Shown here: positions 4,535-51,117 of the stretch, piece by piece
Numbering within the stretch: the first letter of the stretch is position 1
How the letters are laid out: each line of letters begins with the position of its first letter
NCBI RefSeq assembly: GCF_014931565.1
Contig: NZ_CP063353.1
Location: 1,364,001 to 1,428,000, forward strand
Length of the DNA stretch: 64,000 nt
Origin: Clostridium sp. 'deep sea'
GTDB taxonomy: Bacteria > Bacillota > UBA994 > PWPR01
Direction: 5' to 3'
The notes under the pieces: model-generated
Databases searched by the model: none
Told to the model about the DNA's origin: nothing
What the model saw: the letters and a program-made list of their open reading frames with translations, nothing else
Made by a program: the position numbers and the translations under genes

Positions 4535-4740
4535 TTTATTGAAATAAGAAAAGGCAGGTTTCCTGACTTACAGCTTAATTTACTCTCTTTCCTTCCCAGA
4601 TTACTCCAGTGGTTACAAGATTTCATTGCTGCTTACAGTAGCGGGGGCTGCAATAGATTTACACTATTTTCCCTATTACCTCAATTACGAGCACCTTTTC
4701 TATGCCAAAGTTAGTATATGGCAATTACTCTCAATATTCA
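4535..4740 (-). promoter_or_regulatory. cobalamin riboswitch
   Basis: The leftward strand carries recognisable cobalamin-aptamer landmarks in order: AAAGGTGC near the 5' end (about 4690-4697), GCAGCCCCCGCTACTG (about 4640-4655), then CCACTGG and the 3' closing stem AGTCAGGAAACCTGCC (about 4553-4568). An intrinsic terminator follows. It precedes the importer lipoprotein gene, so B12-type ligand should switch the operon off. Exact ends are approximate. Confidence 0.93.
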
Positions 4741-19811: not shown

Positions 19812-20083
19812 AGTATGCTTCGCACAGGGGTGGGCTTGTTCCTTTGGAACTTGCGTGGTGGGTATCCTCTAGGAATACGGGGTGGACTCACTAAAGCTCG
19901 TGGGGTGGATTTGCTTTGCAAATGGTAGACAGACATCGCTTAGCTTACGTGAGTAGTATTAAAGTGAGCATATAACCCGCGAACCAAAGGTGAGCCCAAA
20001 CCGTGCAGAGCAAAAGCTCAAACCCATCCCGAATATGACATGTCATATTCCCACCCCACGATGTTCAAAGAACGAGTCCTCAC
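19812..20083. repeat. palindrome-chain array A
   Basis: A chain of short hairpins with different stems: GTTCC-TTT-GGAAC (19838-19850), GTATCC-TCTA-GGAATAC (19862-19878), ATTTGC-TTT-GCAAAT (19909-19923), GAGC-AAAA-GCTC (20008-20019), the 20-base perfect palindrome at 20031-20050, and GTTC-AAA-GAAC (20063-20073). Spacers in the left half are G-rich (GGGGTGGG, GGTGGG, GGGGTGG twice), whereas in the right half they are the complement (GAGCCCAAACC, CCCATCCC, CCCACCCC). The element can therefore also fold back on itself. Arrays B and C share this plan. Confidence 0.85.
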
Positions 20084-26309: not shown

Positions 26310-26532
26310 TGCGATGGAGTTGGCATGCCTGTAGCATACGGCTTGGGCTTGCCTTTGGCAAGCGGGGTGGATATTTCTAAAGAAATATGGTTTAGACTTC
26401 GTGGAATAATACTATAAAAATAAAAAAACGCTAATTAGCGTTTTATGATTACCGTAAGCATTTTATTGCGCACCCCGTCAAGAGCGATAGCTCAAGCCCA
26501 CTCCGTATTTAACTTATTAAATACCCCCACCG
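26310..26532. repeat. palindrome-chain array B
   Basis: Hairpins with unrelated stems: GCTTGCC-TTT-GGCAAGC (26347-26363), ATATTTCT-AA-AGAAATAT (26371-26388), CGCTAATTAGCG (26429-26440, flanked by A and T runs), GAGC-GATA-GCTC (26482-26493) and GTATTTAA-CTTA-TTAAATAC (26505-26524). Left-half spacers read CGGCTTGGG, CGGGGTGG; right-half spacers read CACCCCG, AAGCCCACTCCG, CCCCCACCG, the complement. The turning point is near the central A/T-flanked palindrome. Same architecture as arrays A and C. Confidence 0.85.
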
Positions 26533-41575: not shown

Positions 41576-42628
41576 TTAAACACTAAAAATACACTTAATA
41601 CCATCTTTTCTAAAACACTTATTACAAGAAATACACATAGATTTAGTAAATTCTCCACGCATCCATATATTAGCTAAATTTGGTTGACAAATAAGGGCTC
41701 TACTCATTGAAAAATAGCTAATATTTGTTGTATTTAAAATTTTGGTTAACATCTTTGGATCTCTATTTTTGTTAACAACAATTATTGGCACCTTACAACT
41801 TTCAGCAATGTTGCAGGCATACTTGGCAAATACTGATTCTTGATTTGGCTCAACACTGGGGTCGTTGCCACCACTTATTTCAATAGCATTTATACCTAAA
41901 TTAGCAAGTCGACCACAAACCTCTTTACTCTCATTAAAAGTGAATCCCTGCTGCATAAAATCACTGCAGTTTATTTTTATTAAAATATTAAACTGCGAAC
42001 CTACTTCTGCTCGCATTTCTTCATAAATTTCACATATTATACGCATACGATTGGTTAAAGAACCACCATATAAATCCTGCCTTTTATTAAAGAAAGGGCT
42101 TAAAAACTGACTCAATAAATAACCATGAGCACCATGAATTTGCACACCGTCAAAGCCTGCTTCTTGTGCCCGTTTTGCAGCTAAAGCAAAGCTTTTAATT
42201 AACTCATCTATATCTTTTTGCTTCATTTCTACTGGGGTAATACCAGAGCGAGGATGCCTTACCGCAGAAGGTCCCCAAATAATTCTATTTTCTACTTTAT
42301 AACTAGTTTGTGAGCCACCATAGGCTATTTGAAGTATTATTTTACTATCATAATTGTGCACAACCTTAGTAAGTTTTTTAAGACCAGGTATAAACTTATC
42401 ATGACTAATACCCAACATTTTTGGATTGGGCTGCTCATGCTCTGTAACAAAAGCATAACCAGTAATAATTAACCCAACTCCACCCTCCGCTAACTCTTTA
42501 TATACATTAACCAAAGAATCATTAACTGTACCATCTTCATTTGCCATACGTTCCCAAGTAGCAGACCGAACTAATCTATTTTTAAGCTCTAGGCTGTTAA
42601 AACTAGTTTTATCAAATAAAGTTTTCAT
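41576..42628 (-). CDS. NADH:flavin oxidoreductase, old yellow enzyme family
   Basis: FMN-dependent ene-reductase of the OYE family, 350 residues. The TIM barrel starts KTLFDKTSFNSLELKNRLVRSATWERMA, with HGAHGYLLSQFLSPFFNKR near residues 165-183 (the conserved tyrosine/histidine region) and YGGSLTNRMRI following. The C-terminus has cysteines in CISCNKCFRKDGIKCIF, in the position where larger 2,4-dienoyl-CoA reductase-type members bind a [4Fe-4S] cluster, so an iron-sulfur cluster is possible though the NAD domain is missing. Substrate unknown. Divergent to the D-aminoacylase, with array C between. Confidence 0.87.
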   Translation of the reverse strand: MKTLFDKTSFNSLELKNRLVRSATWERMANEDGTVNDSLVNVYKELAEGGVGLIITGYAFVTEHEQPNPKMLGISHDKFIPGLKKLTKVVHNYDSKIILQIAYGGSQTSYKVENRIIWGPSAVRHPRSGITPVEMKQKDIDELIKSFALAAKRAQEAGFDGVQIHGAHGYLLSQFLSPFFNKRQDLYGGSLTNRMRIICEIYEEMRAEVGSQFNILIKINCSDFMQQGFTFNESKEVCGRLANLGINAIEISGGNDPSVEPNQESVFAKYACNIAESCKVPIIVVNKNRDPKMLTKILNTTNISYFSMSRALICQPNLANIWMRGEFTKSMCISCNKCFRKDGIKCIFSV

Positions 42629-42682
42629 ATTATCCTCCGCAAATAACTATTACTTTAACGTTAACTATAGTATAACATATTG

Positions 42683-42915
42683 GTTCGCTTTGCTCACGGA
42701 TTGGGCTTGCCTTACAGCTTCGCAGTTTGGGTATTTCACTATGTGAAACACGGGGTGGGCTTGAGCTAACGCTCTTCACGTTTTGGATTCGCTTCGCTCA
42801 TGGTTAAAAACTTGCTTTAGCAAGCCTACCGTCTGCGTTAGCAGACCCATACCGTATGCCGTGGCATACTCACTCCGTTTGCCTATGGCAAACCTATTCC
42901 GTGAGCGAAGCGAAC
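42683..42915. repeat. palindrome-chain array C with terminal inverted repeats
   Basis: The ends GTTCGCTTTGCTCACGGA (from 42683) and the complement of TCCGTGAGCGAAGCGAAC (ending 42915) match at all but one base, so the whole element is an inverted repeat. Inside are hairpins TTTCAC-TAT-GTGAAA (42734-42748), GAGC-TAAC-GCTC (42763-42774), CTTGC-TTTA-GCAAG (42811-42824), GTCTGC-GTTA-GCAGAC (42831-42846), GTATGCC-GT-GGCATAC (42854-42869) and GTTTGCC-TAT-GGCAAAC (42877-42893). Left spacers read CGGATTGGG, CGGGGTGGG; right spacers CCTACCG, CCCATACCG, CTCACTCCG, CTATTCCG. The turn is near 42805. Confidence 0.9.
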
Positions 42916-42972
42916 ATAAGAAGGATTTTTACTTTTGTACTCGAATTAATATTATTAAGGAAGGTGAAAATT

Positions 42973-44553
42973 ATGTATTCTTATATTATAAAAAATGCCC
43001 GATTATTAGATGGTGCAGGTAATCCTTGGCGGTACGGCGATGTTGCTATTAAAAATGATATTATTGCTAGTATTGGTGATTTTAGTAATGCTAAAGCAGA
43101 AACTGTAATTGATGCCAAAGGTCTTTATTTAAGTCCTGGTTTTATAGATGTTCATACTCACTCAGGAATGGTTCTTTATGTGGATGGCAGGGCTCATTCT
43201 CACCTGTTGCAGGGTGTTACAACTAATGTATTAGGTCAATGTGGTAGCTTTTTAGCGCCAGTGACTGACTTGCGTTTACAAACCTCCGATAAGTCTCAAA
43301 TAGACATTACTTGGAGAACCACCAATGAGTTTTTAACTCTGCTTGAAGAAAAAGATTTAAGTGTTAATGTTGTTCCTGTTGCTGGTCAGGCAGCTATACG
43401 TCAATGTGTTATGGGTTATAACCCTAATAAACCTAGTAACACCGAAATGAACGAAATGAAAGAGTTGCTAAAAGAGGCAATGGAAAGTGGTTGTTTTGGT
43501 GTAAGTACTGGACTTATTTATACCCCTAGTTCGTATGCTGATACCGAAGAGTTAATTGAATTAACTAAAATTATAGCCGATTACAATGGAATTTACTTCT
43601 CTCATATTCGGGGTGAAAATGATTTTGTATTAGAGGCTGTTAACGAGGCCATAGAGATTGGCAAACAGGCTAATGTGCCAGTGCAAATATCTCATTTAAA
43701 GGCTATGGGCAGACATATGTGGGGTAAATCTGTTGACATTTTAAATATGATAGATAAAGCCAGAGAAGATGGAATTGAAGTTACCTTTGACCAATACCCT
43801 TTTAAAGCCTCCGCTTGTGGTTTAAGTGCTGTATTACCACCCTGGGCACACGTTGGCGGTGCCAGTAAAATGCGTGAAAGATTGGCCGATAAAGAGCAAA
43901 GAGCAAAAATTAAACACGATATTTTACAGGGTGTAGATAAATGGATTAGTATTCATAAAGGGGTAGGTTTTGATAACATTTTAATTACTCATACTTTTGA
44001 AGACGAGTCCTTAATAGGTAAAACAGTAGCAGAAATAGCTAAAGAACGTAATGCAGATGAATTTGAAACCTGCTTTGATATTCTACAATCAATAGAGGGT
44101 CGAGTAAGCATTGTTTACTTTACCATTTGTGATGAAGACTTAGAGCGTATTATGAAACACCCTGCCATGATGGTGGGCTCTGATACAAGCGCTCGACCTA
44201 TTGATGGACCATTAACTGCTGGCATGCCTCACCCACGTACTTACGGTAGCTTTGCCAGAGTTTTGGGTGAATATGTTAGAGACAAACAAGTTCTTACTCT
44301 ACCTGAGGCTATCAGAAAAATGACTTCTGCATCAGCATTTAAACTTGGCTTATATGATAGAGGTTTACTGTTACCTGGTAAAAAAGCTGACTTAGTATTA
44401 TTTGATGCCAATACCGTAAGAACAGATGTTACCTATACAAACCCTAAACAGTTTCCGGTAGGCATAAAGAAAGTATTTGTTAATGGTGTATTATCTGTAG
44501 ATAACAGCAAACACACTGGTGCTAGTGCAGGGGTTGTAATAAGAAGAAAGTAA
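42973..44553 (+). CDS. N-acyl-D-amino-acid deacylase (D-aminoacylase)
   Basis: Zinc-dependent amidohydrolase of 526 residues that deacylates N-acyl-D-amino acids. It begins YIIKNARLLDGAGNPWRYGDVAIKND (core NARLLDGAGNPW), then the metal-binding HTHSG in FIDVHTHSGM near residue 60. Further landmarks are TGLIYTPSSYADTEEL near 175, SHIRGEND, the metal-ligand histidine region QISHLKAMGR and the late VGSDTSARPIDGPL near 400. ATG at 42973 has AAGGAAGGTG upstream; the frame from 42856 starts inside array C and is spurious. The YczE-like membrane protein follows after 4 bases, suggesting a two-gene operon. Confidence 0.92.
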   Translation: MYSYIIKNARLLDGAGNPWRYGDVAIKNDIIASIGDFSNAKAETVIDAKGLYLSPGFIDVHTHSGMVLYVDGRAHSHLLQGVTTNVLGQCGSFLAPVTDLRLQTSDKSQIDITWRTTNEFLTLLEEKDLSVNVVPVAGQAAIRQCVMGYNPNKPSNTEMNEMKELLKEAMESGCFGVSTGLIYTPSSYADTEELIELTKIIADYNGIYFSHIRGENDFVLEAVNEAIEIGKQANVPVQISHLKAMGRHMWGKSVDILNMIDKAREDGIEVTFDQYPFKASACGLSAVLPPWAHVGGASKMRERLADKEQRAKIKHDILQGVDKWISIHKGVGFDNILITHTFEDESLIGKTVAEIAKERNADEFETCFDILQSIEGRVSIVYFTICDEDLERIMKHPAMMVGSDTSARPIDGPLTAGMPHPRTYGSFARVLGEYVRDKQVLTLPEAIRKMTSASAFKLGLYDRGLLLPGKKADLVLFDANTVRTDVTYTNPKQFPVGIKKVFVNGVLSVDNSKHTGASAGVVIRRK

Positions 44554-49332: not shown

Positions 49333-49392
49333 AACGCTAGGGATGGGTGATTTTGTTCGGAATGTGAACAGATGAACCTGTATTTAACGTTC
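49333..49392. repeat. REP-like palindrome, degenerate copy
   Basis: Begins AACGCTAGGGATGGGTGATTT, matching the left arm and loop of the other copies, but the right arm has decayed (AACCTGTATTTAACGTTC). It overlaps the last codons of the transposase gene, whose C-terminus is thus encoded by the repeat. Confidence 0.75.
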
Positions 49393-50173
49393 TTTCATAA
49401 TTTTTTAGATACCTATCAACCGCATTATATTGAGTCTCTAACAAGCATGCTGTTTTTCTCAGTGACAAACCACATTCTCTTACTAACATGTAACATAATT
49501 CATTCATTAAATAACTATTCATATGTAACTGTTTTGCACTTGTAATACTATATTTTTTTATGTACTCTTGTCTTAAATTATAACCCATTATGTATTTTAT
49601 CTTTTCAGTATCCTCTTTTATCTCTAAATATATTTCATTATCATCTTGCTTATGAAAATCAGCAAAACTTTTGAGATTGTTACTAAAACACTTTAGTATA
49701 AACTTTTTTTCTTCATTATAAACAAAGTTTCTTTTATGCAAATACTCTATGTAACTACTCCAAATATAATCTTGGGCCTGATTAACTATATTCGCTTTTA
49801 CAGGGTTATTATGTATGTATCTAACATTACATTTAAGGTATTCATCCGATTCAATAGCTTTGCTTTTAAATCTATTATTAAATAGTGCCCCTATTCTGTC
49901 ATACTTATTATTATAGTAGGTAGCATACATGCCACTCACTACCTTAATAGCATAAGACATATCTTCTACATGTGCATGTAATATTAAATGTACATGATTA
50001 CTCATAATACACCAGGCTGTTATTTTTATTTTACAATCATCTTGTTGTTTTTTTAATAATTGTAAAAATTTTTCTTTATCTGTGTCATTTACGAAAATAT
50101 CTTTTTTATTAATACCTCGTAACATAACATGATAATATCCAGTTGAGCTTTGCTGTCTTGCTTGCCTTGCCAC
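49337..50173 (-). CDS. REP-associated Y1 (HUH) transposase, RAYT-like
   Basis: Single-strand HUH transposase of the TnpA-REP/IS200-like (Y1_Tnp) family, about 278 residues. The HUH histidines are in WCIMSNHVHLILH near residues 57-69 and the catalytic tyrosine is likely in ECLKCNVRY/RYIHNNPVKA near 115-130. A C-terminal helix-turn-helix (GLSLRKTACLLETQYNAVDRYLK, core) is typical of Firmicute members. I set a GTG start at 50173 because GGAGGTG lies 5-6 bases before it, while the frame from 50254 extends through a REP palindrome. It is flanked by REP-like repeats, so they are probably its cognate substrates. Confidence 0.88.
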   Translation of the reverse strand: MARQARQQSSTGYYHVMLRGINKKDIFVNDTDKEKFLQLLKKQQDDCKIKITAWCIMSNHVHLILHAHVEDMSYAIKVVSGMYATYYNNKYDRIGALFNNRFKSKAIESDEYLKCNVRYIHNNPVKANIVNQAQDYIWSSYIEYLHKRNFVYNEEKKFILKCFSNNLKSFADFHKQDDNEIYLEIKEDTEKIKYIMGYNLRQEYIKKYSITSAKQLHMNSYLMNELCYMLVRECGLSLRKTACLLETQYNAVDRYLKNYERTLNTGSSVHIPNKITHP

Positions 50174-50207
50174 ATTTACACCTCCATTAATTAAATATGG
50201 AACACTG

Positions 50208-50270
50208 CGAACGTTGGGGACGGGTGATTTTGTTCGGAAAACGAACATTTGCACCCGTCCCCAGCGTTCG
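50208..50270. repeat. REP-like palindrome, copy 2
   Basis: Same 63-base hairpin as copy 1 with the arm difference exchanged (CGTTGG on the left, CCAGCG on the right), so G-U/A-C changes lie at the same stem position in both. It lies just upstream of the transposase start. Confidence 0.9.
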
Positions 50271-51009: not shown

Positions 51010-51025
51010 CCTAAGTCAGAAATAT

Positions 51026-51117
51026 ACAGCGGACGCGATGTTTTATCGCGAAAATTATTCTTCGTCTAAAGACTACATCCCATTCTTTAGCACTTTACGC
51101 AAAACATCTACTCTGTT
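51026..51117 (-). promoter_or_regulatory. tetrahydrofolate (THF) riboswitch
   Basis: The leftward RNA reads GAGTAGATGTTTTGCGTAAAGTG, GAATGGGATGTAGTC, GACGAAG and at the 3' side CATCGCGTCCGCTG. These match the order and spacing of the THF aptamer (GAGUAG..GCGUUAAGUG, GAAUGGGAUGUCGUC, ACGAAG, GCAUCCGCUC). It controls folT. Ends approximate. Confidence 0.92.

Follow-up and report, generated by a model that had tools for sequence, protein, structure and literature searches.

A chain of hairpins between divergent genes

The window, that is, the whole stretch of 64,000 nucleotides from Clostridium sp. 'deep sea' analysed here, carries arrays of small palindromes designated A, B and C. Array C is flanked by divergent genes and is the main subject of this section. 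The two neighbouring genes and the parts of the arrays are the following.

41576-42628, minus strand: Old Yellow Enzyme-type gene, neighbour of array C
42683-42915: array C, a chain of hairpins that has lost its core, flanked by divergent genes (from ends, folding and alignment; missing at the syntenic site in two relatives)
42683-42697, minus strand: outer left end, a type 2 hairpin with tandem G.A loop, reading GTGAGCaaaGCGAAC on the minus strand (from the sequence)
42698-42704, minus strand: linker CCAATCC
42705-42724, minus strand: degenerate type 2 hairpin (matched in position by a type 2 unit of the 18-copy alignment)
42731-42751, minus strand: type 1 perfect hairpin GTGTTTCACataGTGAAATAC, with one G-T pair
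42752-42758, minus strand: linker CCACCCC, identical to the family consensus
42759-42779, minus strand: type 3 hairpin GTGAAGAGCgttaGCTCAAGC (18-copy alignment)
42787-42801, minus strand: inner type 2 hairpin ATGAGCgaaGCGAAT, of the type shared with the ends of array C
42811-42824, plus strand: pivot hairpin, where fuller copies carry core hairpins (18-copy alignment)
42831-42846, plus strand: type 1 hairpin GTCTGCgttaGCAGAC
42847-42853, plus strand: linker CCATACC
42854-42869, plus strand: type 1 hairpin GTATGCCgtGGCATAC
42877-42893, plus strand: type 1 hairpin GTTTGCCtatGGCAAAC
42901-42915, plus strand: outer right end, a type 2 hairpin, GTGAGCgaaGCGAAC
42973-44553, plus strand: amidohydrolase gene, probably N-acyl-D-amino-acid deacylase, neighbour of array C
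19826-20057: array A, a more complete copy that includes the core (288 bp collinear with another genomic copy, at locus L019)
26315-26531: array B, eroded copy (18-copy alignment)

The end 18-mers of the 233-base array C, GTTCGCTTTGCTCACGGA and TCCGTGAGCGAAGCGAAC, are inverted copies of each other with one mismatch, as the initial annotation had observed, and at 84% the inverted match can be followed over 32 nt. The spacers between hairpins are rich in G up to about 42803 and rich in C beyond it; the switch, previously placed near 42805, lies at 42803-42811. The earlier description of the entire unit as an inverted repeat with hairpin branches held equally well: the left half aligned to the reverse complement of the right half with a score of 26.5 (best of 300 shuffles, 18.5), and folding of the array as single-stranded DNA gave z = -6.1 and -6.2 for the two strands, with no shuffle performing as well. 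Perfect hairpins are found at 42811-42824, 42831-42846, 42854-42869 and 42877-42893. A search for direct repeats within the array found none, and comparison with Rfam gave no match even at E <= 1. Elsewhere in the window, Rfam identified a cobalamin riboswitch (4536-4713, minus strand) and a tetrahydrofolate riboswitch (51025-51117, minus strand).

The repeat family and its common plan

Array C belongs to a family of non-coding elements of about 230-350 bp, each composed of around ten different small hairpins chained by a fixed C-rich spacer. Its terminal 18-mer, further copies of which the initial annotation had proposed to seek, occurs within two mismatches at 10 places of the 3.83-Mb genome, and the spacer YGGGGTGGR is present 151 times versus 35 for the reversed control. 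In 40 fetched stretches around linker hits plus the window, a sample biased to arrays with strong linkers, the arrays merge into 38, meaning that the genome holds at least 38.

On the C-rich strand the family unit reads as a hairpin and then CCANNCC. Hairpins of type 1 have perfect stems and often start with R-T-A. Those of type 2 carry GA on both arms inside the two outer pairs, forming tandem G.A mismatches in a YGAR context (ACGATGCCaaaGGCGAGT, GTGAGCaaaGCGAAC), and a third, rarer type has the form GTGCAGAGC...GCTCAAAC. The first two types tend to alternate. Alignment of 18 fuller copies revealed a common plan in which about four inverted units lead to a core, which is followed by about four forward units, the core consisting of two further hairpins with ACGT...ACGT and ATGC...GCAT stems. 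Array A follows this plan and is 74% identical to the copy at L019 over an alignment of 288 bp. Array C retains the half-chains and lacks the core hairpin with ACGT stems that array A keeps; instead of being the most complete form, as had been considered, it is a degraded, core-deleted copy of the family. At two loci (L028:3683-4554 and L045:1347-2253) whole or half arrays are tandemly duplicated, with periods of about 265 and 330 bp.

A covariance model made of a type 2 hairpin, the linker and a type 1 hairpin produced 89 matches in the genome under study and 22 in that of a congener (G001), the only other genome of the genus, with none in 24 further relatives. Under stricter filters, a search of 299 genomes of the phylum returned matches in the own genome only and none in the 298 others. 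A pattern scan of one genome per species across 84,980 GTDB species gave two chance matches, both in GC-rich genomes, while the scan of viral contigs, plasmids and phages gave none; the arrays in 11 further loci had no match in Rfam. Within the searches made, the family was therefore found only in one genus. The arrays of the congener share the common plan; some of their spacers differ (GGGCTGG), and one form with three hairpins is abundant among them. The same genome harbours a second chained-palindrome repeat (L080:1708-1790, in G001:C129; L100:1563-1610; L090), in which different perfect palindromes are joined by TGAAG(T), as in TGTTGTtatcACAACA-TGAAG-TATTGCttcGCAATA-TGAAG.

Pairing in the stems and placement of the arrays

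Turnover of the stems is extreme and multi-base, with pairing retained. Among 105 distinct units delimited by their linkers, with no fitted alignment, the outer two stem positions were complementary in 90% and 90% of cases, against 49% and 45% when the 3' arms were dealt anew (maximum of 500 such controls, 62% and 57%). A model-fitted alignment of 82 distinct units, which leans towards structure and on whose fit the complementarity test does not depend, showed changes on both sides at all 14 pairs; the cells changed on both sides amounted to 213, versus 68.5 in shuffles, and the covariation score was 0.45, falling to 0.03-0.06 with partners slid.

Such palindromes could in principle be kept by mutation bias and not by selection, with template switching inside the hairpin copying one arm onto the other, so that stems drift and stay perfect. 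Template switching can indeed make and maintain hairpins (PMC8794818), and the multi-base turnover described above would suit it. However, template switching would be expected to remove the tandem G.A mismatch, whereas GA was found on both arms in 25 of 57 imperfect units, and the process leaves the fixed spacers and the alternation of hairpin types unexplained, which makes mutation bias an improbable explanation. Because the tandem G.A loop is conserved although it is a mismatch, which repair would remove, the stems appear to be under selection on the fold and not shaped by template-switch repair alone.

With regard to genomic context, the 37 classifiable arrays are distributed among codirectional (23), convergent (13) and divergent (1) gene pairs, array C being the sole representative of the last group. 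The remaining arrays are found at the 3' ends of genes, in many cases next to a terminator T-run. Array ends stand within 10 nt of a terminator T-run in 15 of 76 cases, compared with 28 of about 2500 random positions (1.1%), a control that includes coding DNA and hence overstates the enrichment relative to an intergenic one. This placement agrees with a tolerance of, or a preference for, gene 3' ends.

The location at gene 3' ends, together with the strong covariation, would also be expected if the arrays were RNA elements, either structured 3' regions or small RNAs located downstream of genes and selected for their RNA fold, which might stabilise transcripts, serve as backup terminators or present series of hairpins to binding proteins. 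The C-rich strand, moreover, is predicted to be the more stable one in 37 units and the less stable in 15. Against this, the two halves of an array are inverted, so any transcript would show the favoured strand over half of its length only, and many arrays lie past the T-run, outside the expected transcript. In addition, array C sits between divergent genes, the syntenic genes of relatives do without arrays, and Rfam offers no counterpart, all of which renders a role as RNA unlikely.

Dispersal of the arrays and likeness to known mobile elements

The initial annotation had suggested looking for empty sites, and these were found. In the congener and in a relative from another genus of the family (G002), the same divergent genes occur in the same orientation and array C is absent, the distance between start codons being 344 bp here versus about 147 bp (G001) and 144 bp (G002); a conserved box, AGAAGGAT, is retained beside array C. 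Since both syntenic relatives lack the array at the same gene pair, array C was most likely gained in its own lineage, loss in both relatives being a possible but less simple alternative. Presence here and absence at syntenic sites, the general mark of a mobile element, extends to array A and to the array at L047:1486-1903, both missing from the congener, and to array B, missing from G002. At the site of array B the congener has a different array, which could be orthologous or have been inserted independently. In the reverse comparison, of one congener array with the genome studied here, synteny was lacking on one side. At L047:7591-10142, a segment of two genes (probably of the 2-hydroxyacyl-CoA dehydratase type) lies between two arrays and is missing at the syntenic site of the congener.

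Dispersed copies are collinear and their homology ends at the array bounds (90% quantile of the overshoot, 15 bp). Together with the empty syntenic sites, this indicates that the array is the unit of dispersal and was gained in the own lineage. The best dispersed pair is 84% identical over 160 bp, and as no near-identical copies exist among the 38 sampled arrays, movement was probably not recent. The syntenic genes of the relatives share about 67-72% DNA identity, a distance that makes the exact insertion junctions unreadable.

The earlier proposal of a MITE-like mobile element thus stands as regards a dispersed family with empty sites and homology confined to the array, and fails as regards a MITE with terminal inverted repeats. 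Like MITEs, the arrays are small, dispersed, apparently non-autonomous and non-coding, with inverted ends. Nevertheless, a classic MITE mobilised by a DDE transposase is highly improbable: MITEs have constant terminal inverted repeats, whereas array ends differ from copy to copy, and the end hairpin of array C is a recurring family type that is also present internally (42787-42801). The only direct repeat across the ends of array C, AACATA (42674-42679 and 42913-42918), overlaps the terminal repeat and gives no clear target duplication, and the Y1 genes examined in the own genome and the congener include no cognate transposase bounded in this way, such as the initial annotation had envisaged.

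The Y1 loci themselves carried no array units at eight of nine positions in the own genome nor at the two of the congener, the remaining own locus showing a weak array piece beside one IS200 gene. At L009:700-1250, a tandem repeat of about 150 bp containing GGAATCACACAGAGGTGATTCC adjoins an IS200 transposase and an array piece. The Y1 transposase genes L010 and L011 of the own genome form two orthologous pairs with L111 and L129 of the congener (54-56% identity), and these are bounded by their own inverted GGGGTCAGGC repeats, as in TIRYT elements, whose TIR repeats have a GGGGWSAS motif (PMC3733652) that GGGGTCAGGC matches. The array linker likewise starts with GGGGT on its G-rich strand, but GGGGTGG does not fit GGGGWSAS and the arrays are not located at TIRYT genes. 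As candidates for the mobiliser, these RAYT/TIRYT-like genes find no support: they have inverted repeats of their own, and Y1 genes occur also in relatives devoid of arrays. The window contains a Y1_Tnp gene (49337-50254, minus strand), at a distance of about 6 kb from array C; neither an array unit nor a GGGGWSAS repeat occurs near this gene.

The nearest parallels are REPINs and BIMEs, doublets of REP sequences whose presumed mobilisers are RAYT Y1 transposases (PMC3116915, PMC3733652). In the REPIN model, inverted palindromic units with compensatory changes form single-stranded hairpin intermediates acted on by a Y1 transposase (PMC3116915). The arrays resemble them in being non-coding, dispersed and intergenic, in lying near gene 3' ends, and in their inverted palindromes, imperfect hairpins and compensatory changes. 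They differ at the foot of the hairpin, which is formed by CCANNCC and R...Y and carries no conserved GTAG or CGTC tag, and Firmicutes are not mentioned among the hosts of GTAG/CGTC repeats in the survey of PMC3733652. Furthermore, REP palindromes are conserved in sequence whereas array stems vary freely; a REPIN consists of two inverted copies, whereas each array half is a chain of several hairpins, the whole comprising some ten hairpins in which two to three types alternate, CCANNCC joints and a core; and RAYT genes are flanked by their repeats, whereas none of the Y1 genes examined is flanked by arrays. As the REP features tested were not found, the arrays are not classed as REPINs and would be REPIN-like in their working at most. 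Mitochondrial repetitive hairpin-forming elements, such as sponge RHE and double-hairpin elements, are also invasive and non-coding as far as described in PMC2800124; these are, however, elements of organelles.

The family is best read as a dispersed, non-autonomous element that is REPIN/BIME-like, has a new architecture and is kept by selection on hairpin structure, and the balance tips modestly towards array C being a degenerate copy of such a genus-specific element. Its members would spread in the form of folded single-stranded DNA on which an enzyme acts in trans, reading the type 2 hairpins and the CCANNCC foot, much as REPINs are thought to use RAYTs; they would persist at sites past terminators, where an insertion causes little damage. 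Array C probably entered the divergent promoter region after the split from the sister species, replacing about 35 bp, and lost its core before or after entry. A bolder view, tentative and rather doubtful, is that the arrays constitute a new class of structure-encoded mobile DNA, in which a hairpin string with a tandem G.A signature, a fixed foot and nearly free stems owes its movement to a trans-acting enzyme for which no action on such arrays is known so far.

In the preferred reading, the family is a dispersed element whose identity resides in structure and not in sequence, nearly every stem base changing while pairing and one non-Watson-Crick signature are kept. The arrays also provide a natural test of selection on hairpins versus template-switch mutation. 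Repeats defined in this way are missed by ordinary repeat finders, as illustrated by the direct-repeat search in array C, and for that reason such elements may be overlooked elsewhere.
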